Source of the DNA: Boothiomyces macroporosus
Taxonomy: Eukaryota > Chytridiomycota > Chytridiomycetes > Rhizophydiales > Terramycetaceae
NCBI GenBank assembly: GCA_027604185.1
Contig: JADGKB010000194.1
Span: 1-16,831 of the forward strand
DNA: 16,831 bases
Reading direction: 5' to 3'
The translations under genes and the position numbers were made by a program. Numbering within the stretch: the stretch's first letter is position 1; each line of letters starts with the position of its first letter. Positions 1,303 through 16,236 of this stretch are shown here, in pieces. Under the pieces are notes generated by a model. It searched no databases, was not told the origin of the DNA, and saw nothing but the letters and a program-made list of their open reading frames with translations.

Positions 1303-4300
1303 TTATCTTCCAGTTGAGAATTTGGTTGGGTGAAGATCTAGTCCACGAATATCTGGTGAGAACTTGATGGCATTTCTTGATCGCATGATGGCCAATCTGA
1401 TGCAAGAATAAATGAAAATAACGATACCAAATCCGATACCTATCAACCATACATATGGCGTCATTCTATCATCAGTCTGGAAGGCAATGTTGAATGGTGG
1501 CACGTAAACAATAATGAAAACGATAGCAGCACCAATCAGAATACCATAAAAGTTTCGCACGTTTGAGAACATGAACGCACCTACTGGATATTTGAACTTT
1601 GCCTTTACGCAGAACAAGTTGAAGCATTGCTGAATCATAAGAACCATGTAGAAAGCAGAGTTACCCAATGCAACAGCAGCAATTTGATCTTTGTCTTGGA
1701 ATACTTGGCCAGTTGTTGATGTAAGAACATATCCAGTGCTACCAAAGTTTGGATCGGTGAAATCCTGCAAAGAAAATCGATATTGATACCACATAGCAAA
1801 GAAATAAGCAACCAAACAGCCAATTGTTTCAATTGTTCCAATTTCAATATATGCCCAAGATAGCACGCCAGCATCTACCAAGGTTTCTTCTTCAATAGGA
1901 TCAGTAAAGTTTCGCATAATCTTTCCAATAAAGGAAGGAGGTCCATTCTTGGCATCTTCCTTCATTCTTGCAGTAAGCTTTTCAGTGACAGGCTTTCGAG
2001 GTTGCAACTTCATCAAGCTTCCTTTGTCTTCAGGCAAATCCCAGGCAAATGAAAGCGCCAAGAACAACTCAAACCCTAAATCGGTAACCATGATAAGAAT
2101 TGCATTCATTGGTAGCGGAATTGGTACAGCGACATTCAACAAGTTGGCGTATACTACATCAAGTATTTTTTACCTTCAGGCATAGTGTGAGAGATTGTAT
2201 ATTTGATTGATTTCTTCAAGTTCAAGAAAATCAATCTTCCTTCTTCAATACCGTTAACACAAGAGGCAAAGTTGTCATCAATCAAAATCATGGCAGCAGC
2301 TTCCTTTGATACGTCAGATCCAGATAAATTCATGGCAATTCCCAAATCAGCTTTCTTTAATGCAGGCGAGTCGTTTACACCATCCCCAGTTACACCAACA
2401 ATGTGTCCTAGAGACTGTGCGTGTTTAACAATAGTGAGTTTGTGCTTTGGAGAGGTACGAGCAAAGATAATTTCTTCCTTTGAGAAAATGTTTTCCCAAT
2501 CAGCTTCAGTCAATCCGTCAATCTTTTCACCATGAATAACAATAGCATGTGCATCAGACTCTGGCACGTCTTCTGGTCTGCAGTTTCTCTTCTTTGCCAA
2601 AGAGTCTCTAGTGTCTTGCAACATCAAGTTGATTTTTCTTCCAATAGATTCTGCAGTAAGAGGGTGATCTCCAGTAACCATCATTACTCTAATACCAGCT
2701 TCTCTGCAGTGTCCGATAGCTTCTCTTACACCGTGCTTTGGTGGATCTTCGAGCGAAACCAAACCGCAGAAAGTCAAGTCAGTCTAAAATGAGCTCAAGA
2801 TTACCTTTGGGTAGTTGACAGGATCCTTTTTGAATTCAAAATCAGCAGGGAATTGATCGCCAGGTAATGCAAGGCAAGCAAAAGCAAGTACTCTGTGACC
2901 TTTGGAAGCCATAAAGTTATAAATCTCATCATATCGTTTAACGTGTTGCTCAGTCAATGGAATTGCATCATTTCCATCATGGAAAGTAGAACACAATTTC
3001 AATACACGTTCTGGAGCACCCTTCAAGTAAAGCATCAATTTTCCATTCTTGTGTTCTTTTTTATGAATAGTCATTGCCCATTTGTTGTCAGAGTTGAATG
3101 GAATTTCAAATACTTTTGGGAAAGTGTCGTGAATACCGTCAAAGTTGTCCAGCTTTTGAGCTGCATTACGTAACAAACCTGCTTCAGTAGCGTCACCAAG
3201 AACAGGCCGAGTAGCAATTGGGCCTTCACTGTTTTCAAATCGAGCTCGCGAACACAAGGCAGACATGTGGACGATTTCGTTTACACCAGCGTGTTTCATA
3301 TCCAAAGTTACAGCGCCAGAATCGTCTCCACTTTGCAATTGTGCGAAAAACAACTTATCTCCAGACCAGACATACGTTACAGTCATTTGGTTTCTTGTCA
3401 ATGTACCGGTTTTGTCAGTAGCCAACAAAGTAATAGCACCAAGAGTTTCAACACCCTGCAAATCCTTCACTAGCACGTTTCTTGTAGCCATCTTTTTGGC
3501 AGCTAATGAAAGCAAAATTGTTACAGTAGCAGGCAAACCTTCAGGAACAAAACTGACAAAAGTACCGATAGCAAAGTTGAAAGCATAAGCCCACGTATTT
3601 CCTCTGGCAAAACGAGCGACAAAGAAGAAGGTTACGGCAACAATACCAGCAATCACGGCAATAGTGTAAACGAAATTCTCGATCTCCTGATTCATTGGCG
3701 ATACACGTCGTTCTTCACTGGAGGTCAAAAATGCGATCTGACCAATAACAGTATTGTCACCAGTTCTAATTACAATACCATAGCATTCACCATTTACACA
3801 CAAGGTTCCGTTAAACATTAAGTTGTGGGCTTCCAAAGGGTTTTGATGTTCATTCTTTACTCCTCTTTCTTGGGCTTCGGCTTCACCAGTCAAAGAAGCA
3901 TTGTCAACCTTGACCTCGGTAGAAGCAAAGATTACCAAATCAGCAGGAATTTTGTCTCCAGAACGTACATAAACGATGTCACCCTTTACAAGTTCGATAG
4001 CTGGGATGTTTTGGGTTTTTCCATCTCTAATGACGTTACACTTTGCAGGAATAAGATTCTATATTAATAAAGAGTACCATAAATGACTCCAAGATAGCTT
4101 GTGATTTTTGGGTTTGATAGAATTCAATAAAAGCGTTTGCAAAAGCAACAAAGATACAAATAGCACCGATATAGATCTAGATTAAAGCCGGAATACGTTG
4201 ATTGTGTTTCCTTCTGGTTGTACAGCGTATACAATATAAGCGACGATACCACTGACCCACAACATCACGTTAAAGATATGCAGCAAATACAGAATGAACT

Positions 4301-4533
4301 GAATGATTGGGTGGACCTTTTTTGGCGGGCTAAGTTGGTTCAATCCGTCTACTTCTAATCGCTTTTTTGCTTCTTCCGATGACAACCCTTCTGACGCAAC
4401 AGCTTTTGCAGTATTGAATTTGACATTGAACAGCTCCGATAGCTCTTCGGGAGTTTTCAAATGCTCAGTCTATATTAAAGAGAATTACTATGTCGACCTT
4501 CTTTTCGTCCTCTTTCTTTTCTGGGGGAGCCAT
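1303..4533 (-). CDS. P-type ATPase, Na+/K+-ATPase alpha-like (type IIC-related), six exons
   Basis: Cation-pumping P-type ATPase of the membrane, 1043 residues, close to the usual alpha-subunit length. Exons (minus strand): 4533-4489, 4469-4197, 4176-4078, 4058-2805, 2783-2174, 2153-1303. The five introns are 19, 20, 19, 21 and 20 nt, and their removal keeps the frame. The start is the ATG at 4533 (MAPPEKKED). Visible motifs: the actuator loop reads TGEA (196-199) instead of TGES; M4 has PEGL with Glu at about 312; the phosphorylation site is DKTGTLT with Asp354; the hinge is GDGVNDSPA (about 690). M5 reads YTISHTMPE and M6 reads TDLGFEL. The C-terminal membrane half (M7-M10) is present. Overall similarity is to Na,K/H,K pumps, but several cation ligands differ, so the transported ions are uncertain. 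A fungal ACU-type alkali-cation ATPase is an alternative. No beta subunit lies in the window. It diverges from ALADIN. Confidence 0.93.
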
Positions 4534-4741
4534 GATAAGTTGTGGAAAAAAATCGTGTTCTGATAGTCGCGTTTATATTGTTGTTACAAGTGGCGTCAGC
4601 ATAATTTAGTAAATAAAAGCCGCCATTATTCTTAAAATTTCAAATCGCATTTCTTTTACAGCCACTAGTTTAATCTTGCCAATGCTCGATTGAAAACATT
4701 GAATTTTCCTGTTTGCATTCTTTATTTTTTTTCAAAATCTA
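4534..4741. promoter_or_regulatory. divergent intergenic region, ATPase / ALADIN
   Basis: These 208 nt separate the start codons of the P-type ATPase (minus) and the ALADIN gene (plus), so both promoters must lie here or overlap the 5' ends. The stretch is AT-rich, with an A/T run just before the ALADIN start. No specific factor site was recognised and no small ORF is convincing. Confidence 0.5.
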
Positions 4742-5944
4742 ATGGTTTCAGTAGTGTCGTTCCAAGAGAGCAATAATCAAATCCAGGATCTGAGACCGAA
4801 CCAATCAGCGAATATATACCACCCGCCGTTAGTATTTCCGCTGGAGCTTCCTGCACAACCGGATGAACCGCTAGCTCTGTTAAAATCTCAACCAGAGGCA
4901 CCAATCCCAATATCCAAAGGTATTTTTTATTAACAAGGCATTGATCTAATCAGCTGGCATCCATTAAAGACCACTTTGGCAATATCTCATTCGAATTCCA
5001 TATTTTTATATTCGCTTCCCAACAAAAGTAATGCCAATTAACCTAGAATGGTTTCCCGGACCTAGTGGTTTGACTCATCCCCTTCAATACCATATCAGCA
5101 GTGTAAAATTTTGTCCTTTTGGACCAACAACATTAGCAGCTGGATGTGAAAAAGGTGTTTTGCTCTGGAAAATATTTACAGAAAAAGCCAGAGATCAAAC
5201 TGTTCCATTGATTGAAGGGGAGTCTAATGCGTGGATGGAATTACTTGCTGTTGACGGATTAGAAGGTGTTTCATGCATCGAGTGGAGTTTATGTTCAAGA
5301 TACTTGTTTGTAGGATACAAGGATAGCGTTAGTCTAGTTGTGTGGGATACAGTTACTCTTACTCCGACTATATTGACCAGGGGCTCATTCAGAGGAACGG
5401 ATCATTTGTTATCGATCAATGAAGGAAAGTATCTCTTGCAGACATGTGGAAATCAGTTTTCCATCTGGGAAACAGAAACATGGAATGTTAAATTAATGTC
5501 AACTAATAGTAAAATCACAAATATCATATGGATCAACGGAACTAGAAATATCCTTTTCACGATAAAAGGCAGTTTCAAAATCTATTGTCTACAAATCAAG
5601 AATAATCTAGAAACACTTTCTGCTCCAGATATCGAATTGCCACAATTAGATTTGCCTCGAATTGATACACATTTATCGCTTGAGATCAAGGAAATCAAAC
5701 TAGACCCAAAGAACAAGAGGCTGGCAGTTGCCTTTGTGAATGGCAAAGTCGGTCTCTTTCGTTTTAGAATGAATCCATTACCAGATCTTGAGCCAATGTA
5801 ATATATTTTTAATTTAGTGGATGGGTTAAAGGATTTGATGGTGAGACCAGTATTGACTTTGCTGGGCAGTTTGAAGGTGGATCTTTGCTAGCTGTAAAAT
5901 GGAACAAGGAAATCATTAGTTTTCTACCATCTTATTTCAGGTAG
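4742..5944 (+). CDS. AAAS: ALADIN-like WD-repeat nucleoporin, four exons
   Basis: Predicted nuclear-pore WD40 protein of 381 residues, shorter than the human protein (about 546). Exons: 4742-4919, 4938-5027, 5047-5797, 5818-5944; introns of 18, 19 and 20 nt. Removing them joins LISWHPLKTTLAISHSNSIF (exon 2) to WFPGPSGLTHPLQYHISSVK (exon 3). Exon 4 supplies the terminal blade ending in KEIISFLPSYFR. WD-type strands such as SVKFCPFG, LLWKIF, CIEWSLCSRYLFVGYKDS and VVWDT are visible. The GLTHPLQYHISSVKFCP stretch and the final GGSLLAVKW...PSYF strand match ALADIN better than a generic WD40 protein. ALADIN sits in the pore's cytoplasmic ring region with NDC1 in other eukaryotes. Yeast lacks it, while filamentous and early-diverging fungi can have it. 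Moderate-to-good confidence in the family; the propeller fold is near certain. Confidence 0.82.
4920..4937 (+). other. 18-nt intron of the ALADIN gene
   Basis: Shortest intron inferred in the window: GTATTT at the 5' end, TTAAC followed directly by AAG at the 3' end. Removal joins ...ISK to GIDLISWHP in frame; without it the frame ends at TAA within four codons. A 34-nt alternative ending at the CAG at 4953 is in a different frame and would lose the start of the WD strand. Confidence 0.8.
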
Positions 5945-5992
5945 CTTAGCCACACGCAAATAAAATGTCAGTGATCAAGTTTATATTTAAAA

Positions 5993-6283
5993 ATGTACAG
6001 CTGCCCTATATGCCAGAAACCCTTTCCCAACCAACAGGCTTTTGATCTTCATCTCCAGACCGAAATCGAAAAAGAATCTAAAAAGAAAACCCAACCACAT
6101 TTCGCGCTATACACCGCATATATATCCGAGACTGTTCCACAGCAAGATAGAGGCTCAAGATGGATTGTAAATAATATCAAGTTGTTCAATATGATCAATG
6201 ATCAGTACAAATCTGTTACTGATCCCGCGTTATTCAAGTATCTCGTCGATCAGAAAATTGACGCATTAAACAAAGTTTTTTAA
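5993..6283 (+). CDS. small C2H2-like zinc-finger protein, hypothetical
   Basis: Single open frame of 96 residues starting 48 nt after the ALADIN stop. Residues 4-7 form a CPIC knuckle followed by QKPF and a helix-like segment containing DLHLQ, as in C2H2 or UBZ-type fingers. A clear second zinc-binding His/Cys after the helix is not obvious, so the finger may be atypical. The middle is basic (KESKKK) and the remainder is a mixed charged region ending in KVF. I do not recognise the protein. It could be a complete small gene or one exon of a larger one, though no neighbouring exon is apparent. The convergent Crinkler-like remnant lies downstream. Confidence 0.6.
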   Translation: MYSCPICQKPFPNQQAFDLHLQTEIEKESKKKTQPHFALYTAYISETVPQQDRGSRWIVNNIKLFNMINDQYKSVTDPALFKYLVDQKIDALNKVF

Positions 6284-6299
6284 AGTAATTTTATTCTGT

Positions 6300-7005
6300 T
6301 TAGTGTGTACCGCCAATCCTACTTGATTGACTTGGCCATGAACCGTTCTTTTTCGATATAGGTTTTAGAGGACCGAGTCAAGTATTTTACAGTGTATTCC
6401 AGCAACTAGGCTGAATCTACCCCCTTTGACCAGTACCAATTGCTGCAAGCTGACAAAACCACGGTCCAATGCGACAGGCAAAACAATGTTATTCAAATGT
6501 AGCTTAAATTCATTGTATCAGAGTTTGGTCTGAGGACGATTCAATACCCTATTGGTTTAAACTTAAACTGTCACTCTGTGTCAATTGCATATCTCCATGA
6601 GATTCATTTGGGTTTCTTACCCAGAATTATCACATAAGCTCCATGGAAAACTCTCATTGCTAAATTGGCAATTCTCACAAAGTCTTGACATCTCAACTCA
6701 TGTGCAGCCAAGAGCTCTGCTTGACTGACCCCATACTAATCTCTTGGTGTTATTTATTATGATAGTTTGGTGATTCAGGAACAAAGTAGTGATATCCATG
6801 TTGAAGGATGACTTTGGAGGCATTCCATTCTTCAAGAAATGAACTGCTTTAGTGCTTTCAATTCTCTCTTCTTGGATGCAACTTTGGACAACCCCTTCTT
6901 TGTAGTCTTTCTGCATTTAAAGGAAAACATTTGAGCCAGTTCAAGAGTAGTTGTGATATACTTTTCGATAATTCTCCCTTTGGTATCGTTACTGTAATCA
7001 GCTCC
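6300..7005 (-). pseudogene. decayed C-terminal part of the Crinkler-like gene
   Basis: After the TAA that ends the NTPase frame (7008-7006), coding-like sequence continues in the same frame with GADYSNDTKGRIIEKYITTT up to about 6920. It then shifts to a second frame (about 6916-6700) containing KAVHFLKNGMPPKSSFNMDI followed by TLF. These pieces resemble the region that follows the NTPase module in fungal Crinkler proteins. A third frame (about 6740-6610, LLAAHELRCQDFV) and a fourth (about 6510-6390, VALDRGFVSLQQL) are open for a few dozen codons each but were not assigned to a family. Several stops and frame changes remain, so this is not translatable as one protein. No other gene was seen between 6284 and 7005. 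Confidence 0.6.
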
Positions 7006-8271
7006 TTAAACAATCTCAGCAACCATTCCAAGAGAAGTAATCAGACCTTTACCATGATAAGCAATTAGTGCATCACGAGCAACTGGATTCAAAGCAGTAA
7101 TAACTTTAGAACCATCTTCATTCTGCACAATATCAAAAAGTTGTCGGTCCATTCCAACCTTAATCTTGGGCGGAGAAAGACAGAGTGCCATACGAGTGAT
7201 ACATTCCTTGAGATTGACCCGCCTTTCTTTGGATAGTTTATCAAAAAACTTGCTATGATCCTTTGTAAACTCTTTTACTCGATTTTCACGATAACACATT
7301 GTCTTTTCCTGTAAACTTTTCACTGGTTGCTTCCACAGCAAATCCAATTCATGTGGAACACCACCAGACCAATACAACGCATCAACAGCATCTTCAGATT
7401 TAGGGTCGACTTTGACATTATCTCCGAGCATGTACTGATCACACCACAAGCCGAATTCATTGTCATCAAACCTGTGACTTGAAATATCGTGGGTTTTCCA
7501 TCCTTTCATTTCGGTTGGGTATCCTTCATTATTGGCTGATGCTGACACAATGACTTTGATGTTTTTACTGCGGTTTGCTGCAAGTTCATTAACCAAAGAG
7601 AATGGGTATTCATCCACCACTACTGAACGTGCATAAAAAGCATTGTGCTGGTCAAATATTAGAATCCAAGTTAAATCTTTAGCCACAACATATCCAATAA
7701 GATTGTCGATTAGTGCTATCAGCTTTTCTTCCTTTTCACTTCCAACAACAGCTTCACACCATTCTACTATGCATTTTCCATCGATAACATCATTGTAAAA
7801 AGTAGTCACAAGTTCTTTGAGAATATACTTGTAACTTTTCCTTCTCCAAGAGGCACAGTCATTTACATAAGTTACCCTGTAAGTTTCTCGATACAACCGA
7901 TATTCAGCTGCCAAAATATATAGCAAATAACTCTTCCCAACTCCAACCGGACCTCTTAGATAGATTCCAAGATGATTTTCTGAACTTGTGTTCTGAACTT
8001 CCTCCTTTAATATGTTGTAAGATTTCCTAATGATAACAAATATGGAGTTTTGTTGAGAACTGAACCGGTATTGTAAACCATTTGGCGAAATAAATGGTAA
8101 AAAAACACAGTTGGCAGTTGTAAAGTTGCCAAGTGAGTTTAGCACACCCTGCGACCTTTCTGCAAACTCTTGAATTGCTTCAAAGTTTGGTGTAGGGAGT
8201 GAAGGAAACTCTGGTGTTAGTTTACTGAATTTTCTTTTTGCTGAAACTGGGTTGTGATTAAATGACGACAT
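7006..8271 (-). CDS. Crinkler (CRN)-like P-loop NTPase, probably truncated by an in-frame stop
   Basis: Open frame of 421 residues from an ATG at 8271. A Walker A motif, RGPVGVGKS, lies at residues 106-114. It is followed by RVTYVNDCASW and a helix LKELVTTFYND, and a Walker B-like strand WILIFDQHN at 202-210. This order (P-loop, Y-x-N-D-C-x-x-W, L-x-E-L-x-x-x-F) is the NTPase module seen in Crinkler-type proteins of oomycetes, chytrids, Rozella and Glomeromycotina. No signal peptide or LFLAK-type leader is visible. The frame stops at TAA just before sequence that still looks like the family's C-terminal region, so the gene appears cut short. Family proteins have been proposed as nucleus-acting effectors or as relatives of transposon- and conflict-derived proteins. 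Function here is unknown. It diverges from the UBE3D-like gene with 96 nt between starts. Confidence 0.75.
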   Translation of the reverse strand: MSSFNHNPVSAKRKFSKLTPEFPSLPTPNFEAIQEFAERSQGVLNSLGNFTTANCVFLPFISPNGLQYRFSSQQNSIFVIIRKSYNILKEEVQNTSSENHLGIYLRGPVGVGKSYLLYILAAEYRLYRETYRVTYVNDCASWRRKSYKYILKELVTTFYNDVIDGKCIVEWCEAVVGSEKEEKLIALIDNLIGYVVAKDLTWILIFDQHNAFYARSVVVDEYPFSLVNELAANRSKNIKVIVSASANNEGYPTEMKGWKTHDISSHRFDDNEFGLWCDQYMLGDNVKVDPKSEDAVDALYWSGGVPHELDLLWKQPVKSLQEKTMCYRENRVKEFTKDHSKFFDKLSKERRVNLKECITRMALCLSPPKIKVGMDRQLFDIVQNEDGSKVITALNPVARDALIAYHGKGLITSLGMVAEIV

Positions 8272-8367
8272 TGCTGAGAGTATTATTAAAATTTTTACTT
8301 CACAAAATTGGTGTGGCTCTCAAGCCCAATCAAGCCATCCCTAGATGATTTTTTTCTCTTTTCTCAG
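8272..8367. promoter_or_regulatory. short divergent intergenic region, Crinkler-like / UBE3D-like
   Basis: Only 96 nt lie between the two divergent ATGs (8271 minus and 8368 plus). The frame upstream of 8368 is open to a TTG at 8308 but has no ATG. A pyrimidine-rich run ending in CAG directly before the ATG at 8368 could also be an acceptor of an unseen 5' exon. Confidence 0.4.
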
Positions 8368-9342
8368 ATGGAATATTTCAACAACACTCTTTCGATTGAC
8401 CTTGCAAGATTCAACAGAGTAGAAATCAACCAGTCGGATATCCAGATCGATAATATCAATATCAAATGCAGTACAGATATACCTTCTACCAGTATCCAGG
8501 GAACAAAGCTAACTACAAAGACCAGAATTAAAACGGAGCAACCAATAGTATACCCAGAAATCATAAAGTGTAAATGCGCAAATTTACTGTTCAGCAAGAG
8601 TTCAAAGATATTAGAATTACCGAATGATTATTGGTTCGAGTTGCAGGAATGCTGGGCTTGTCATGATGAGGACTATACGAAACTAAAAGGACAGGAAGGC
8701 GGGATTATTTATTCGCAGGAAGGGGTGTTGATGGTTGGCACGAGCTATTACTTGATTCATCCATCTGATTTACAGGGATATACAATTACAAAGGTAAGCA
8801 AAATTGGATTAATAGGAAGAATAATATTTAATGATATTATTTAAAAAAGATCCTACATTAATTGATTAAAAACAAGACATTTTTCTACTAGCAGATTAAT
8901 GACTACATTTAATCAAACAATAATAGAAAACTAATAATAGGATCAAGTGTTTTGCAGCCGCTGTTTGTTTCCCATTGGCAAATCAATCAAAGAAGGAAAA
9001 GGAATCCAGTTGTACAAGTACCGGGTGAATGGATTCAGGAATGAAATCAAACTTTGTCCTTCATTCACAAATTGCTTCTTACTAGAACTAATTGATGAAG
9101 CTAATACGATGGCTCATTACCGCTATTTAATCAATGACAAGCTGTTTATTATTCTTTTAAATTGGAAGATCATGGCGTACAAGAATGGCTTCAAAAGGGC
9201 TGTGAAGGTGTTGTATGGAGAAGGGATTGGCGAAAAAGTTTTTATAGATGATGATTTATTGGTAGAGTTTTACCAGCAATTACAGAGTGGGTATGTTGGT
9301 GAATTTAACGATTTGAAAACTAGTATTGTTTTTATTGAATAG
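8368..9342 (+). CDS. UBE3D-like (HECT-like E3 ubiquitin ligase E3D family), two exons
   Basis: Exons 8368-8793 and 8941-9342 give 275 residues, with the splice in phase 0. Exon 1 carries the family's signature around LELPNDYWFELQECWACHDE and ends in YTITK. Exon 2 continues with a CSRCLFPIG knuckle and QLYKYRV, and ends at TAG. UBE3D-family proteins bind E2 enzymes (UBCH10/CDC20 context in animals) through a HECT-like domain without the standard HECT fold. The cysteine pairs (KCKC and CSRC) are consistent with zinc binding in this family. The intron is 147 nt, far longer than others in the window. Start choice: ATG 8368 is the first in frame. Family assignment is from motif recognition; the role in this organism is inferred. 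Confidence 0.78.
8794..8940 (+). other. 147-nt intron in the UBE3D-like gene
   Basis: Donor GTAAGC and acceptor CTAATAATAG join YTITK to DQVFCSRC in frame. A 22-nt alternative ending at 8815 (TTAATAG) leads to a TAA after two codons, so it cannot serve the second exon. The interior is very AT-rich with several TTAAT-like motifs; no internal exon or snoRNA box pair was recognised. Confidence 0.65.
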
Positions 9343-9429
9343 AAATTGATTATAGATTATCATCTGTTTTGACATCATAAAACTCCTTTTTGGCAATGTA
9401 ATTGTGCTGTGCAATTTGTTTGCCCCTTT

Positions 9430-9772
9430 TGTTCAACGAAAATAGAGTCTGCCCATCCTATAGGGGGAAAAGTTTGGAAAGGACTTGAGATTATTTAACA
9501 CAATGTCCTCATTCTCTACGCGAAACTTTATTTGAATGGTGTTTTGTTAACACATCGAGTCTGCTATCTACTGTACTCGAAAATGGGGACTAGTAGAGTG
9601 TAAATCTCGCCACATGATCTGGAACCGTGATTTAAATAGTGCACTCAACATTCGTCTGTGTGCTCTAAGCCCTATTCAGGGTAAAGACTGTCCTTTATAC
9701 TTGCAACGAGGGAACTCTACTGAAGATGCTTCAAAAATAACCAATAAACGTTCAAAACAAATTTTATTATAA
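9430..9772 (+). pseudogene. decayed Fanzor/TnpB-like RNA-guided nuclease, C-terminal remnant
   Basis: The frame ending at the TAA 9770-9772 contains HMIWNRDLNSALNIR. This is the hallmark third RuvC motif of Fanzor and TnpB proteins (W-N-R-D-x-N-x-A-x-N-I), with the catalytic Asp retained. Just upstream is GLVECKSR, at the place of the zinc-ribbon C-x-x-C, with Arg in place of the last Cys. Further upstream, frames differ: SYRGK near 9450-9475 resembles the family's S-x-R-G-K element, and VLLTHRVC near 9540-9562 resembles the strand before the zinc ribbon. Stops and frame changes separate these pieces, so only about 110 codons of a roughly 500-700 residue protein are traceable. No terminal repeats were identified. 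It lies between the convergent UBE3D-like and kinase genes. Confidence 0.68.
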
Positions 9773-9852
9773 TAAACGACCAGAGAACGACTGGTAACAA
9801 TACCGCAAAGGGATGACATACATCTGTCTTCACAGAATCTAGTCCCTGAATA

Positions 9853-12205
9853 TTAATTCCATTCGAGGTTCAACACTAGTTTATCACAAAAAGTAAAATA
9901 CGCTTTGCTGTTCCCACCAATTTTTTTGAATTTAATAGCATGCAAATTAAGCAACCACAATTTGACGATTTCCACTCTAAGCTCCAACGTGTCAATGGTG
10001 ACCTTAAACATGTAATAATCAGGTACTCTTTGGAATATCATTGTTGGATATTCAGATTTGAGTTTAATCAGTGTCTTGTGTAATTCTTGAAACATTGTTG
10101 CTGGCGGCAGTACTGACCCATTAAGAGAAAACTTTACTGTTCTGATTTTAATTGCTGGTTTGTGCATTTCGTGCCAATCTGTGATGTCTTGAATATCTAG
10201 ATGAATGTCCTCTTGAGGAAGGATGGAGGACATTCGATCTGCTACCGAAGCTTCTCTGGAAATGCTGTTTGGTTGGTCCGCGAATGAACTTTCACGCGAC
10301 ATGCCACCAATAGAGTTTCTCGTAGACCTGTTTCTATCTATTAGTGAAGCTGCTCTACGAATTCCTGAATTATTGATTGAAAGTCTAAGTTTAGTAATTG
10401 GAAGAGCTTTTTGATTATTATCTTGTGTATTTGCTTTACTGTGTCCCAAGTTTATTTCATTGAGCGATTCTTCTAATGGTGATTGATGAGTTTCGTTTAT
10501 TGGTGGAGGTGACTCCACGATTGGTTTGTTTAATATATTTCCAAACGCCTCTGATTCCATCGGAAGTGGTCGCATCACACCAGAAGATCTCTTTTTTATA
10601 CTTTCGACAGACTGCCGTCTACCATGAGTCGGTGCAAGTTGTTCTTTGGATTTATCAATAGAAGTTTTGCGTTTTATACTGCCTTCAGTAGCTGATGTTC
10701 GTGCTTTGATTTCATTATCGGCAATCTTATGGATACTATTGCGGGATCTTTTTTCTCTTAATTCCAAAGGTGATGGTATTAGGGTGCTGCTTTTACCAAT
10801 ACACGAGGTTGATCGTTTAATTAGCCCTTTCTGGTCGGTGGTTTGTAGGTGGGAGGAACTTTGATTGATGGCATTCTTGGAATTCTCGCTATCAGAGAAA
10901 GTCATTTGGTAGCTCGAGCCTGGTGTGACTTGTACATTGATGCTCTTTCTTCTTTTTAATGCAGCAATATCCTGCACCGAGCTTCTCCTGATATTCCTTT
11001 CAAATTGCTCTATGTCTTTTTGTAGCTGTAATTCGTTATGTTGTCTGATATGATACACTGTACAATTTGTGTCGAATGTAACTGCTGAAATCACAGCACC
11101 TAGCGCATTCCTGTCTAGTTCAACCGGCTCGATTTGAACAGGTTTGTTTACGCATTCATAGTTTACCCATCCATCATTTCGCAGTCCTTCCATATCAATC
11201 CTTTCCTTTGCTTTAACAAAAATGCTTTTGAGCAAAATACACAGCTCTGGTGTTAGAATAGCTTACCCACGGAAAACTCTTTGGGGAACGTGTACTGGAG
11301 TTTCTTTACGTTAATCTCTAGCTGGTTTAGCGAGTCAGCAATAAATGGTGGATGTCCAGCAACCATATAATACAGAATTACTCCCATTGCCCAAATATCA
11401 ACTTTTTTGCCGTCATACTTTTCGCCACCCATTATTTCAGGTGCAGAGTAGTATGGTGTGCCACAGATGGTCTATGGTTAACGATAGATACTTCTAATTT
11501 ATCGCCATAAGCAAATGTCCCCAACCCAAAATCAGATACAAGTATATTTCCTCCTTCATTCAACAGGATGTTTTCCAGCTTTAAATCTCGATGGACAATC
11601 CCTGACGCATGAGTAAATTGAATGGCTGATACAAGCTGTCTAAATAGCTTTCTTGCATGAGTCTCTGTCAAACTCTTTTGTTTTTTGACAAGGTCTGCCA
11701 ACTCTCCACCTGCACAATACTCCCTATATTACAACTATTTACATGATAATGTATATTTCCTCTTGTCCATCAATGACTTTAAATGTCTTTACAATATTGG
11801 GATGATTCAGTCGCATCAGCAGCAATACTTCCTTTTGAAAATCAGATAAATAATCTTCCGGCTCTTCATTATGTACCACAACTTGTTTTTCAGCTTCTAC
11901 CTTTACTTTTTCAATGAATTCATCGAGATTTTCTTGGTTTTCGATTTCGTTTTTCTTGATTGCTTCGATAGCTTCACGGTATATACGTTTCCGTTCTTGG
12001 AGGACTCTAATCTTTTCTCTATCTTTACGCACACGCTCTCCATTTTCTTTATACGCCCTCATGAATTTCTTGTTGAGTATCTTTATGGCAACCAGTTGTT
12101 AATCAATGTTACTTTTTCACCAGTGGGTATATGCTGACCAAGTTTTACCTTGCTAAATGCTCCTTCCCCTATAGTATCGCCAATTTTGTAGTTGGCTAGT
12201 TTCAT
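9853..12205 (-). CDS. Kin1/MARK-like Ser/Thr protein kinase with KA1 domain, five exons
   Basis: Predicted 757-residue kinase. Exons (minus): 12205-12113, 12092-11743, 11723-11492, 11471-11267, 11246-9853; introns 20, 19, 20 and 20 nt. The start is ATG 12205. Glycine loop GEGAFSKV (13-20); VAIK with Lys35; HRDLKLEN (192-199); DFG (212-214); GTPYYSAPE (229-237); [10 protein letters not shown]. The catalytic residues are complete if the first intron is spliced as inferred. A charged, probably coiled insertion of about 65 residues (43-108) separates Lys35 from the alphaC Glu (about 119). A long Ser/Arg-rich, low-complexity linker with RRSS, KRKTS and RKS-type sites follows. The last 100 residues (about 658-757) form a KA1-like membrane-binding domain ([18 protein letters not shown], then [10 protein letters not shown] and GNSKAY). 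This architecture fits Kin1/MARK polarity kinases; SNF1-related or Gin4-like kinases are less likely. Confidence 0.88.
12093..12112 (-). other. 20-nt kinase intron without an AG acceptor (GT-TG)
   Basis: The segment begins GTAACA, contains ATTAAC and ends in CTG. Removing exactly 20 nt joins ...HIPTGEK to VAIKILNKK and restores the canonical VAIK lysine. No AG exists at that point. The nearest AG gives a 32-nt intron that stays in frame but deletes VAIK. Retention gives a TAA stop. Confidence 0.55.
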
Positions 12206-12389
12206 ATTTGATAAGGTTGATTAGGCCGTGTATTCTGCTATTTTTTGTATCCATGCAAAACAATAGGACGCCATGTCCAATCATACACTAATCCCAAAAT
12301 TCGCTAGTGTTGAATTCGGGAACTGGTACACCCAGATAGTACACACGAAATAATTGAAATGCGCAGGGTAGATTTATAAAAAAATATAA

Positions 12390-13198
12390 TTAATTTTCCA
12401 ATAGATACGCAATGGCTCTTTGAATATCATTTCTACTGAATCGCAGTGCTTCAATAATTCTTGGGCGGGAGAATCCCATACTTTCGAGCATTACGATATC
12501 CTCTTCTGAATGCGCAAGCACCGGCTCAGTAGTAGATTCAGTAGGTAACGTATTTTGAGATCTGCTAGGAGGATCAACTTGTAGCAATGGCAATATATAC
12601 TTTTTGCATAGTTTTACCAGGCCACTATTCACTCTCCACTTTTTAATTCCAGTGTATTTCACAATCATTCCAGTCACCAGTCCACAAGCAGCCGCAACAA
12701 CAGACTTGCTACCAGACACCAAGCAAAACTAGATTAAACCTAAAGTACCTGTAAAATGATGAAATACAAGAAGGAGCGATCGCTAAATGTCATTCCCAAG
12801 ACTTGAATATGATAAGAGGGAGGTATTTGGTTCATGTAGAATATTAGACAGCTAAAGATGAATCCAAATGGACCGCAGCTGCTTTTAATTCCATTGTAAA
12901 ACAAGATTCCTTGGAGAATAGTAGTAATAAGGGTAGAGTATATAAATAGAGAAGTAAACTTCACACTGCCCCAGTGCCTTTCCAGTATCCGGATATTATA
13001 CAATATGAGGTTTCCGAGGAATAGGTGAGTTGTAGATTGATATGTAATTGGGAACAGGATTAGTTTAATCACATTGAAATGCTTTGGTGTTGTGGTGGTA
13101 CCCAGCAGTACAGTAGTGAGTGTTGTAAGTCCTGTTAGTATCGTAAGGGCTTTAGTGGTTGGAGTGTTGGAGAATCCGCTTGGTCCATTTGAGAGCAT
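12390..13198 (-). CDS. UBAC2/Dsc2-like rhomboid pseudoprotease with UBA domain, two exons
   Basis: Exons 13198-12749 and 12728-12390 (20-nt intron 12748-12729) give 262 residues. The N-terminus SGFSNTPTTKALTI starts the rhomboid-like membrane domain. Several hydrophobic segments follow, including FHLF-type TTHLFLGNLILYNIRILERHW and SCGPFGFIFSCLIF. The rhomboid GxSG serine is replaced by a GPFGF loop, so no protease activity is expected. After a short basic/Ser-Thr-rich linker comes a C-terminal UBA domain (about 227-262, MLESMGFSRPRIIEAL). UBAC2 in animals and Dsc2 in fungi act in the ER/Golgi as membrane scaffolds for ubiquitin ligase complexes (ERAD, SREBP cleavage or Golgi quality control). 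The 184 nt between its 3' end and the kinase start hold no recognisable feature. Confidence 0.87.
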
Positions 13199-13317
13199 TT
13201 CAAGATTAAATTCAAAAGGTAGAAAATTGCTTGAATTTCCGAGTTCCAGCAGAAATGCTCAAGAGTAAAGAATAGATTTTTAATTTCTGATTATTTCTTG
13301 GTTATTTGTGATGAAAT

Positions 13318-13324
13318 TGACTCA
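13318..13324. promoter_or_regulatory. TGACTCA, Gcn4/AP-1-type site
   Basis: The heptamer matches the bZIP (Gcn4/AP-1) consensus. It lies in the divergent region between the UBAC2/Dsc2-like gene and the amino-acid permease, about 155 nt upstream of the permease ATG. Overlapping it, CTCAATT-T-AATTGAG (13321-13335) is a perfect inverted repeat. In yeasts Gcn4 activates amino-acid genes, so the position is suggestive, but one heptamer can occur by chance. Confidence 0.35.
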
Positions 13325-13478
13325 ATTTAATTGAGCCACTCTGCCATTCAGTCACCTATGATTGATTGCAGTCCCTGATGTAGAGTATAACCCTGCGGAA
13401 ATATCCTATGGAACAGAACTTTTGATTCAACGACTACTCTGCCTCATCTGGGGAGATATTAAACTTTTTTTTTCAAAA

Positions 13479-14942
13479 ATGATTTCAAGCCAGAGACTTG
13501 AGCGACAGTTTTCTGGAATAGAAACATTTGGACTGGTACTGACAAATTCTTCAGTCATCATTGGGATAATTCCCTTTTTTGGAATTGCAATGTTTCTTGG
13601 AGGGCCAGTCAGTTTTACCTGGGGATGGTTGATTACTGGATTGTTTACTTGCTGTATTGGATTATCACTGGCGGAAATATGCTCTACCTTTCCTGCTTTA
13701 GGAGGTCTTTATTACTACTCTGCAGCACTTGGAGGAGAGTATGGTCCGATTGCTTCGTGGTTTACTTGTTGGTTTAACGCTCTTGGACAGATTGCTGGCT
13801 GCAGTGGATCAGTATTCGCTGGAGCTCAGTTTTTAAACATTTATCTGTCAACAGTGGGTTTACAAGATTACTTGATCAGAAACAATCAACTCGATCCAGT
13901 TTTTATTCTCCTCACATTTGGAATAATGATTGTTTTGATTGGATTTATTAATAGTTGGGGAGGAACAGCACTTCGAATATCATCGTATTTATCCACATTT
14001 ATTCACATTATTGGAACATTTGTGATTATTTTAACTATATTAGTATCAACTCCAACAAAGCAACCGTCTTCATTTGTCTTTACGCATTTTAAAGATACCA
14101 CTGGATGGACAGCATTAGGAGCACCGCCAATATTTGTTATTATATTAGGGTTACTTCCATCAGCATGGACGTTGATTGGATATGATTCGTCAGCACACTT
14201 GTCTGAAGAAACTGTGGATGCTCAAATTAATGGCCCCTCAGCAATAATGTGGACTTTGGGTTGGAATATAATACTTGGATGGGGGCTGATTCTCAGTCTG
14301 ACGTTTTGTATTACAGATTATACACAAGGAGGAATAATGGCGGCTCAAATATTCATAGATGGCGGAAACTCTTTATTATTGTTGATAGTCTCGTTTGCAG
14401 GGTTTCTGTGTGGAGTTGGAACAGTTACAGCGAATTCCAGGTTATTGCTTGCATTTGCTCAAAATGGTGGATTGCCTTATTCAAATTATTTGGCGAATAT
14501 TGATATCAAATCCTCAATGCCTGTGCGCCTAGTTTGGCTATCTTGTATTTCTGCATTCCTGCTATGTTTACCAGTATTGTTCTCTTCTGTTGTCTTGTCT
14601 GTTATTGGCGGTATTTCTATAATAGGATTCACAGTCTCTTATGCAATACCAATACTTTTAAAAATTACTGTTGCAAAAACAAAGTTTAAACAAAGTGATT
14701 TCCATCTGGGCGGATACAGTGATATTATTGGATGGATATCAGTTTTCTGGACACTATTTCTCTTGGCAATCTTTCAATTCCCCAACAATACTGGAGGTTC
14801 GTTTCCAATTACCATTGAAAACTTTAACTTTGTTCCTGTTATTATCATTGGGTTGGGTCTACTTGTTGGAGGATGGTGGATGATTGATGCAAGATATTGG
14901 TTCAAAGGACCACATGTTTATGAAATCGCTGATAGTGATTAA
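13479..14942 (+). CDS. APC-superfamily amino-acid/GABA permease
   Basis: Polytopic membrane transporter of 487 residues from the ATG at 13479. It begins SSQRLERQFSGIETFGLVLTN, the usual lead-in to TM1, and continues with SVIIGIIPFFGI, GPVSFTWGW, SLAEICSTFPALGGLYYYSA and FTCWFNALGQIAGCSGS. These match the fungal ACT/GABA permease group (Uga4-like, choline/amino-acid permeases) of the APC superfamily. About 12 hydrophobic segments can be counted to the C-terminus (ARYWFKGP). YDSSAHLSEET, near the middle, is a conserved loop of this group. The frame is also open upstream to 13362 without an ATG, encoding PAEISYGTELLIQR, which might belong to a missed 5' exon, so the start is uncertain. Substrate is inferred only as amino acid, GABA or polyamine-like. 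Confidence 0.88.
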   Translation: MISSQRLERQFSGIETFGLVLTNSSVIIGIIPFFGIAMFLGGPVSFTWGWLITGLFTCCIGLSLAEICSTFPALGGLYYYSAALGGEYGPIASWFTCWFNALGQIAGCSGSVFAGAQFLNIYLSTVGLQDYLIRNNQLDPVFILLTFGIMIVLIGFINSWGGTALRISSYLSTFIHIIGTFVIILTILVSTPTKQPSSFVFTHFKDTTGWTALGAPPIFVIILGLLPSAWTLIGYDSSAHLSEETVDAQINGPSAIMWTLGWNIILGWGLILSLTFCITDYTQGGIMAAQIFIDGGNSLLLLIVSFAGFLCGVGTVTANSRLLLAFAQNGGLPYSNYLANIDIKSSMPVRLVWLSCISAFLLCLPVLFSSVVLSVIGGISIIGFTVSYAIPILLKITVAKTKFKQSDFHLGGYSDIIGWISVFWTLFLLAIFQFPNNTGGSFPITIENFNFVPVIIIGLGLLVGGWWMIDARYWFKGPHVYEIADSD

Positions 14943-15019
14943 TATACCCTTTTTAGTGTGTTTGCTCAAACAGTTTCAAATTGATAAAAACAGGGTTAGC
15001 AAAACACCATGAGATTAAT

Positions 15020-16120
15020 TTATTTCGCTTGTACTTTAAATAATCCCAACTCCATTGATTGAGTTTTATACGTGTTGGTGGTGTACTCTATCCCATCAAC
15101 TACTGTAATTGCTTGCGTGCATTCAACCAAGAATTGAAAGTTCACAGTAGAAGAAAACGATTTTAAGGTAAACCAGACTTTTTGTCTTTTCAAACATGGA
15201 ATATCCAACCCACTTCCAGTTACTCCATTCAATTCAAGGAGGAGAACCGAATGAGTCCCAGCTGGAAATGACTTTGGGAAATCCAAGACAAGCTGTTCAC
15301 CATTTGTAATATTAGCTATGTCTGTTCCAATGGTAGCTCTGGTAGCTGTTATGCGTTCATTGGAATCCAATATAATTTGATTTGTTTCTTTTTTGTTTAT
15401 AATTCTAGTGTTAGATGTATTCTTGCCCTATTTGTGCGACTGCCTTGTAACTAAAATTATTTGATAAAAATAACTCTATATTGTAGGAATCAATAGTGTA
15501 GTCATAATTTGGCACCGGCTCTAACCAAGCACATAATCTATCATAAGCATCAGGATCAGAACAGTAGTCGTGTGCTCCTTTGTACCACATTGTCTCGTAG
15601 CTCTTTTTGTAGTTGATGAATACATCTTTACCATTATCAGCATCACCCATTAAACTTAAGACTCGAAATCCAGACAAATGGTCAATCATAGGATCATACC
15701 CTGATAATTTCGCAGAGGGTGGAATAGGTGATAAACCCATCAACCAAACAAATTCTGGCAATGGAGCGAGATGTCGTGCTATAAGAGTGGAAGTGTGTGC
15801 ACCCATCGAAAATCCCCAAAGCCCAACAAAATCTTGGTCCCAATACTGATTAATATAAGGCAAGAGCAAATCCAAGTCAAACATAATTGAATCGAAAAAG
15901 TTGGCTGCATCTTTCTTTCGGACAAACCAATCGTATGTAATTGGCTCTTCTGTGCAAGTGTTTATTGGTGTACGTGCAACTGGCCCATTGATGAAAATGA
16001 ATTCATACTTTCCTTCCAATTTCTTTTGCAGCTGCTTGGTGAGTACGTCGAAATCTAACATTAATTTGTATTACTTTCTTTGTAGTCGCCCGCTCCATGT
16101 AAACACAAAATCTTTTTCAT
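15020..16120 (-). CDS. FSH1/OVCA2-type serine hydrolase with extra C-terminal domain, three exons
   Basis: Exons (minus): 16120-16075, 16054-15427, 15404-15020; introns 20 nt and 22 nt (GC-AG); 352 residues. Exon 1 gives MKKILCLHGAG, the first strand and oxyanion loop of the FSH1 alpha/beta-hydrolases. The 20-nt intron removal continues DYKENFDVLTKQL in frame. The nucleophile elbow is GFSMGAH with Ser98. Candidate acid residues lie in GDADNGKD (about 153-160) and the His is in KGAHDY (about 177). Usual FSH proteins are about 200-250 residues and would end near residue 222. Here exon 3 adds about 128 residues rich in beta-forming and Thr/Val residues (LVLDFPKSFPAGTHSVLLLE) that I do not recognise. 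Exon 3 has no in-frame ATG near its start, which supports fusion rather than a separate gene. The frame also extends upstream of 16120 through the 7-nt repeat, but the start is placed at the family's first strand. Confidence 0.85.
15405..15426 (-). other. 22-nt GC-AG intron in the FSH1-like gene
   Basis: Donor GCAAGA, branch-like CTAAC and acceptor ACTAG. Removal joins ...AVAQIG to IINKKETNQ in frame. No GT donor of usual form exists nearby, and without splicing the frame ends at a TAA inside the segment. Confidence 0.7.
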
Positions 16121-16180
16121 TCTTAAAGCCAGGAATATCTTTGTGTTTGATTCATTTTGTGATTCAACGCCACATTGCAA

Positions 16181-16236
16181 CCAAACACCAAACACCGAAT
16201 TCCAAACGCCGAATACCAAACACCAAACACTGAATT
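16181..16236. repeat. 7-nt tandem repeat, eight units
   Basis: Eight consecutive 7-nt units: CCAAACA twice, CCGAATT, CCAAACG, CCGAATA, CCAAACA twice and CTGAATT. The consensus is roughly CCRAAYN, or on the other strand NRTTYGG. It lies about 60 nt upstream of the FSH1-like start. It could be a minisatellite or a set of binding sites; it resembles degenerate G-rich telomere-type repeats on the minus strand only loosely. Confidence 0.8.

Follow-up and report, generated by a model that had tools for sequence, protein, structure and literature searches.

Are the interruptions of about 20 nucleotides (nt) that break up the genes of one chytrid contig genuine spliceosomal introns, and do they belong to this locus or to the genome as a whole? 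The contig (C194, JADGKB010000194.1; 16,831 nt, analyzed in full and hereafter called the window) is part of the genome of Boothiomyces macroporosus, which counts 15,203,306 bases in 216 contigs; the species is placed in the Terramycetaceae, Rhizophydiales, Chytridiomycota. An earlier note, made from the letters of the window alone, had inferred 16 introns, 15 of them of 18–22 nt. Based on the analysis of the window and of a genome sample, we propose that these are, very probably, true U2-type spliceosomal introns, that they occur across the genome of this chytrid fungus, and that their length is kept to 19–22 nt, with 19 as a sharp lower limit.

Results

Introns of the window

All 16 introns were reproduced at the same places and with the same lengths (Table 1): one of 18 nt, four of 19 nt, eight of 20 nt, and one each of 21, 22 and 147 nt. 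Among the 15 short ones, 13 run from GTA to AG, one from GC to AG (FSH1-like intron 2) and one from GT to TG (kinase intron 1), exactly as the note had counted, and its branch-like motif (TTAAT, TTAAC or CTAAC, close to the end of the intron) was found again by eye in 12 of 15. Removal of the introns yields six proteins, each with a single terminal stop and no internal stops; besides the three genes listed first in Table 1, they comprise a rhomboid-UBA protein of 262 amino acids (aa), an FSH1-like hydrolase of 352 aa and a HECT_2-domain protein of 275 aa.

The claim that conserved proteins are restored across the junctions is borne out as well, with the ATPase, kinase and aladin junctions in agreement with homologues. 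The spliced ATPase is 95% identical to an equally long protein of Boothiomyces sp. JEL0866, and all five of its junctions are covered by the alignment with animal Na,K-ATPase, which shows one four-residue gap shortly before junction 2. The four kinase junctions are all covered by the alignment with MARK2, and the best match of the kinase is the deposited model of B. macroporosus itself (98% by BLASTP, 100% over the aligned part). At kinase intron 1, both flanks are joined directly (VAIK) in three of five aligned homologues. A Terramyces kinase carries six additional residues, VTITNE, precisely at this site; back-translated (GTN-ACN-ATH-ACN-AAY-GAR), they would fit an 18-nt intron that annotators retained as exon.

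Table 1. Spliced genes and introns of the window, with the evidence for each junction.
Feature	Position	Strand	Description	Junction evidence
Na,K-ATPase-like P-type ATPase gene	1303..4533	-	five introns, 1043 aa	
Aladin (nucleoporin) gene	4742..5944	+	three introns, 381 aa	
MARK/par-1-like kinase gene	9853..12205	-	four introns, 757 aa	
ATPase intron 1	4470..4488	-	19 nt, GTAATTCTCTTTAATATAG	gap-free in 7/7 chytrid homologues
ATPase intron 2	4177..4196	-	20 nt, GTATTCCGGCTTTAATCTAG	gap-free in 7/7 chytrid homologues
ATPase intron 3	4059..4077	-	19 nt, GTACTCTTTATTAATATAG	gap-free in 6/7 chytrid homologues
ATPase intron 4	2784..2804	-	21 nt, GTAATCTTGAGCTCATTTTAG, branch motif not clear	gap-free in 7/7
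ATPase intron 5	2154..2173	-	20 nt, GTAAAAAATACTTGATGTAG	gap-free in 7/7 chytrid homologues
Aladin intron 1	4920..4937	+	18 nt, GTATTTTTTATTAACAAG	next exon aligns with solved aladin chains
Aladin intron 2	5028..5046	+	19 nt, GTAATGCCAATTAACCTAG	preceding exon aligns with solved aladin chains
Aladin intron 3	5798..5817	+	20 nt, GTAATATATTTTTAATTTAG	junction shared by JEL0866 and Terramyces models
Kinase intron 1	12093..12112	-	20 nt, GT..TG, GTAACATTGATTAACAACTG	restores GEK-VAIK, compare MARK2
Kinase intron 2	11724..11742	-	19 nt	MARK2 and homologue alignments
Kinase intron 3	11472..11491	-	20 nt	MARK2 and homologue alignments
Kinase intron 4	11247..11266	-	20 nt	MARK2 and homologue alignments
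Rhomboid-UBA gene intron	12729..12748	-	20 nt, GTACTTTAGGTTTAATCTAG	spliced protein matches Rhomboid and UBA
FSH1-like hydrolase intron 1	16055..16074	-	20 nt	junction within FSH1 match
FSH1-like hydrolase intron 2	15405..15426	-	22 nt, GC..AG, GCAAGAATACATCTAACACTAG	frame and motif only; outside Pfam match
HECT_2-domain gene intron	8794..8940	+	147 nt, long exception	junction within HECT_2 match

Deposited models of the group depart from the spliced genes at such sites. One deposited ATPase model (P0003) lacks 14 residues starting at junction 3, the kinase model of this contig lacks 16 residues at intron 1, up to the VAIK lysine, and the junction of aladin intron 3 is absent from the model of this contig. 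Some of these introns are nevertheless spliced out in existing models of related chytrids; in those of Boothiomyces sp. JEL0866, for example, this applies to intron 3 of aladin and intron 1 of the kinase. Overall, six Boothiomyces or Terramyces models (P0003, P0121, P0124, P0194, P0195, P0196) have lost or gained residues precisely at the sites of ultrashort introns.

A length class across the sampled genome

Besides the window, the genome sample included 25 stretches, each 10 kb long, taken from contigs C1, C2, C5, C8, C12, C20 and C30; the total of 266,831 bases is less than 2% of the genome. The sample was scanned independently of gene models for the pattern GTA...[CT]T[AG]A[CT]N2-3AG, with the expectation taken from ten first-order Markov sequences. 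Matches were observed 73 times at 19 nt versus 7.2 expected (10.1-fold), 111 times at 20 nt versus 8.5 (13.1-fold), 52 times at 21 nt versus 7.0 (7.4-fold) and 16 times at 22 nt versus 6.8 (2.4-fold). At 18 nt the count was 7 versus 6.6 expected, lengths of 17 and 23–25 nt came close to expectation, and the sample held no excess at 14, 15 or 17 nt. Ratios of about two also occur at a few lengths (16, 31, 34, 35 and 40 nt; 2.1-fold at 16 nt).

The same length class emerged from a gene finder that was run in three rounds. The first used codon usage only, with a flat prior for intron lengths of 10–200 nt; GT-AG introns of 18–22 nt numbered 79 among 155, and ten control dinucleotide pairs gave 4–12 introns of these lengths with the sole exception of TA-GG, whose 26 can be real introns displaced by one base. 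The second round learnt splice-site weights from its own calls without a length prior (344 calls), and the third was retrained on the class of 18–24 nt (341 calls), a step biased to short introns via their motifs, not via their length. With the learnt weights and neutral dinucleotides, GT-AG yielded 186 introns of 18–22 nt versus 0–8 for 18 other pairs. In the third round, 268 of the 341 calls measure 18–22 nt and 275 measure 18–24 nt, with 1, 65, 124, 54, 24, 6 and 1 introns at the successive lengths from 18 to 24 nt.

Each of the 26 sampled sequences contains short introns called by the finder. The 275 of them are spread over 189 predicted genes, 59% of which contain at least one, at a density of 1.03 per kb; extrapolated to the genome, this amounts to about 15,700, from a set that undercounts (11 of the 15 short window introns were recovered). 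A pool of 37 predicted genes held two or more introns, every one of them short. Of ten genes taken from it at random, one was the window kinase; the other nine, from elsewhere in the genome, were scanned against Pfam, and they include a V-ATPase subunit with eight introns, a Sec1 protein with six and an FtsH-like protease with three. Within a Pfam match lie 28 of the 36 junctions of these nine genes, of which one, in a RasGAP protein, belongs to a match segment without significance of its own.

Tiny pairs or longer introns

The strongest alternative holds that some pairs of tiny introns are one longer intron, as aladin introns 1 and 2 would be if 4920-5046 (127 nt) were removed in one piece, and that an ordinary longer class also exists. 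In aladin, three deposited models, each from a different species, indeed skip the 30 residues between these two introns, thereby contradicting both, and our own gene finder also picked the 127-nt version. The skipped stretch, on the other hand, aligns as a WD strand with two solved aladin-type chains, and its inclusion raises the Pfam match from 120.8 to 131.3 bits and moves its start from profile position 54 to 20, although the JEL0866 model reaches 131.7 bits without it. At the level of the sample, GT-AG calls of 26–200 nt (44) do not exceed those of 18 other dinucleotide pairs (45–123). An ordinary longer class was rejected on this ground, though the 147-nt window intron has the support of a domain match. 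Taken together, the alternative appears improbable, and the reading as separate tiny introns is preferred.

The 147-nt intron itself looks composite: its 5' part is a potential complete intron of 22 nt (GTAAGCAAAATTGGATTAATAG), and its 3' end forms a second branch-and-acceptor unit. A tiny intron that took up an insertion would look like this.

Intron anatomy

Motifs, spacing and length floor were computed. The donors of the 275 short introns are GTA in 248, GTT in 20, GTG in 4 and GCA in 3. A strong branch motif is present in 204 of them versus 47.6 expected after shuffling of the inner bases, in the forms TTAAT (80), CTAAT (44), TTAAC (32), CTAAC (19) and TGA variants (29). The putative branch A of these 204 is base 14 in 94 and base 15 in 76 cases, and after it come 5 nt in 102 and 6 nt in 76 introns. 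The length floor of 19 equals 14 (the base of the branch A) plus 5 (the bases after it). The interval between donor and branch region is T-rich (42%) yet only about four bases long, too short to accommodate a pyrimidine tract. The consensus appears unlike that of U12-type introns, although no search aimed at U12-type motifs or at U11/U12 snRNAs was made.

Two further ideas were tried. Frequent acceptors other than AG were rejected: when AG plus one alternative was allowed, introns of 18–22 nt ended in TG once (the kinase), in AA twice, in CG once, in GA once and in GG, AC or AT never, versus 169–177 with AG. Selection on introns of a length divisible by three could not be read from the in-frame stops present in 56 of 56 introns of 18, 21 or 24 nt, which are uninformative because the gene finder is blind to stop-free introns.

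Splicing machinery

The survey covered U1, U2, U6, SF1, U2AF1, U2AF2, SF3B1, Slu7, Prp18 and the RED domains. The earlier note had concluded that splice-site recognition is specialised and had proposed a survey of U2 snRNA, SF1, U2AF and SF3b genes for corresponding changes. As far as the machinery could be read, this conclusion finds no support: the 5' end of U1 (ATACTTACCTG), the branch-binding box of U2 (GTGTAGTA, with GTAGTA in both U2 genes) and the ACAGAGA box of U6 (in opposite-strand reading) are canonical and intact, and SF1, U2AF1, U2AF2 and SF3B1 are all matched. More unusual than recognition is the distance of about 13–14 nt from donor to branch.

The two U2 genes (L009 and L010) share their branch-binding region; most of the differences between them lie on the 3' side.

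Profile matches in the genome were obtained for six splicing proteins, Slu7 and Prp18 in addition to the four above; together with U1, U2 and U6, they indicate that the major spliceosome is encoded. The U2AF1 match is split into four pieces inside 600 bases, and the best U2AF2 match (230.7 bits) includes four stop codons, and therefore introns are suggested there; the Slu7 gene itself carries a 20-nt intron. No sign of loss was seen among the seven splicing proteins or domains that gave a clear answer. Slu7 and Prp18 can be dispensable when the distance from branch to AG is short; loss of these second-step factors through the closeness of branch and AG is rejected here, both being matched.

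Other observations

On the minus strand of the window, 7006-8319 holds an NTPase-like open reading frame (ORF) whose weak matches to ATPase_2 and nSTAND3 stay under the curated cut-offs; a stop comes after it, and then more open reading. It is possibly a decaying family member. A short ORF on the plus strand (9551-9769) contains 'SRHMIWNRDLNSALNIR' with a weak likeness to the Cas12f1/TnpB zinc ribbon (15.3 bits, cut-off 26.3) and may be what is left of a Fanzor-type element. At 16180-16230, a 7-base unit, ACCAAAC, is repeated in tandem about seven times. Elsewhere in the genome, same-contig pairs of sites with identical scores on C10 and C65 (kinase matches) and C20 (RRM matches) suggest recent duplication or repeats in the assembly.

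Discussion

In this study, we read the tiny introns of B. macroporosus as apparently ordinary U2-type introns, compressed to a floor of 19 bases. We infer their efficient removal by the spliceosome, the A that serves as branch point, and the manner in which donor and branch are engaged about 13 nt apart. U1 would base-pair with AAG/GUA at the donor, and YURAY would pair with the GUAGUA box of U2, leaving a bulged A mostly at base 14 or 15. Branching would then close a lariat loop about 14 nt in size, and the terminal AG, 5–6 nt past the branch A, would be in immediate reach, making both a pyrimidine tract and 3'-site scanning unnecessary.

Several points weigh against this reading. The introns are known here from genomic DNA alone. 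A strong branch motif is missing from 71 of the 275 introns, and introns with shuffled inner bases also attain this score, at the frequency given above; in the window, two ATPase introns are without a TTAAY-like motif. The aladin models discussed above belong here as well. On the side of the machinery, the U1 match (68.8 bits) falls slightly below the Rfam gathering score of 69.5, U2AF2 stays under its whole-protein cut-off, and RED_N and RED_C have no match in the genome, the same profiles being silent in control genomes too. Finally, the distance from donor to branch is far below the roughly 50 nt needed by human spliceosomes (PMC6692369). For the human B complex the minimum is estimated at about 52 nt, and Smu1/RED is required when the distance is short (PMC6692369). 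Such a minimum is not universal, because Stentor splices with the branch A at base 10 (PMC9505925).

The human limit and the unmatched RED profiles could also favor removal by a route other than the spliceosome, be it endonuclease and ligase, excision from DNA or translational bypass. This is very improbable, given that donor, branch and acceptor motifs fit the canonical boxes of U1 and U2 and that introns of 15 nt are handled by the spliceosome in Stentor (PMC9505925). Assembly or basecalling artefacts, to which the frequent frameshifts would be akin as indel errors, have next to no probability: errors are not expected to produce GT..AG segments of 19–22 nt with a branch-like motif at a fixed distance in every sampled sequence, nor six extra residues at the same site in a related species, to the extent that their back-translation fits an intron. 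Spliceosomal removal remains our reading.

How such introns might be activated can be sketched only tentatively. A spliceosome with standard recognition RNAs and 3'-site proteins may activate at about 13 nt between donor and branch without RED, with the limit of about 50 nt confined to the human assembly pathway; we regard this as rather unlikely. If true, the floor of 19 nt would mark the physical lower limit of a spliceosome in which Slu7 and Prp18 are retained, versus 15–16 nt in Stentor, where PMC9505925 lists both as not found.

There is also a practical consequence. The deposited gene models of the group err at ultrashort introns, at the cost of 16 residues in the kinase and of 30, including a WD strand, in aladin.

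Among the literature matches listed, from a collection that lacks most subscription journals and all preprints, no title or opening of an abstract reports introns this short in a chytrid or other fungus, so that one may exist elsewhere; the name B. macroporosus occurs in one paper, on ITS2. For other chytrids, the available part of PMC5364385 gives intron counts, not lengths, and PMC11649378 is without chytrids. The earlier note had likened the window introns to the ultrashort introns of chlorarachniophyte nucleomorphs and Stentor, and this was the right comparison, now for all 26 sampled sequences; the lengths there are 18–21 nt (PMC10245619) and 15–16 nt (PMC9505925). Yarrowia, one of the yeasts whose introns have a fixed distance from branch to AG, shares the branch motif a few bases from AG and the lack of a 3' pyrimidine tract, but these yeasts are intron-poor and the introns of Yarrowia are described as rather long (PMC2483917), whereas here introns are many and the distance from donor to branch is minimal too. 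Paramecium and Nyctotherus have, as here, exclusively very short introns and many per genome; these are ciliates, with introns of about 25 nt, some 5 nt longer than those described here (PMC5014332).

The introns of mikrocytids (16–17 nt) are likewise uniform, very short and conserved in sequence; there, however, 224 introns are found in a parasite with a reduced spliceosome (PMC10245619), compared with the thousands estimated here and no sign of loss among the seven splicing proteins or domains with a clear answer. In Stentor and other heterotrich ciliates, five bases follow the branch A and the boxes of U1 and U2 are canonical, as here, but the branch A is base 10 or 11 instead of mostly 14–15, the branch motif is weak where ours is clear, and Slu7 and Prp18, both matched in our genome, are on the list of factors not found in Stentor (PMC9505925). 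The chlorarachniophyte nucleomorph has numerous introns in a nearly identical, narrow range (PMC10245619), yet it is an extremely reduced relic algal nucleus, whereas here the main nucleus of a fungus, of about 15.2 Mb, is concerned.

In summary, near-minimal introns are known from relic algal nuclei and mikrocytid parasites (PMC10245619) and from some ciliates (PMC9505925); judged from genomic sequence, the ultrashort U2-type introns described here appear to be a real genome property of a fungus as far as sampled. With 20-nt introns at a density of about one per kb, this chytrid indicates that the state can arise in a fungus that retains the usual 3'-site factors together with its introns, and it provides a fungal system for studying what determines the minimum length of an intron.

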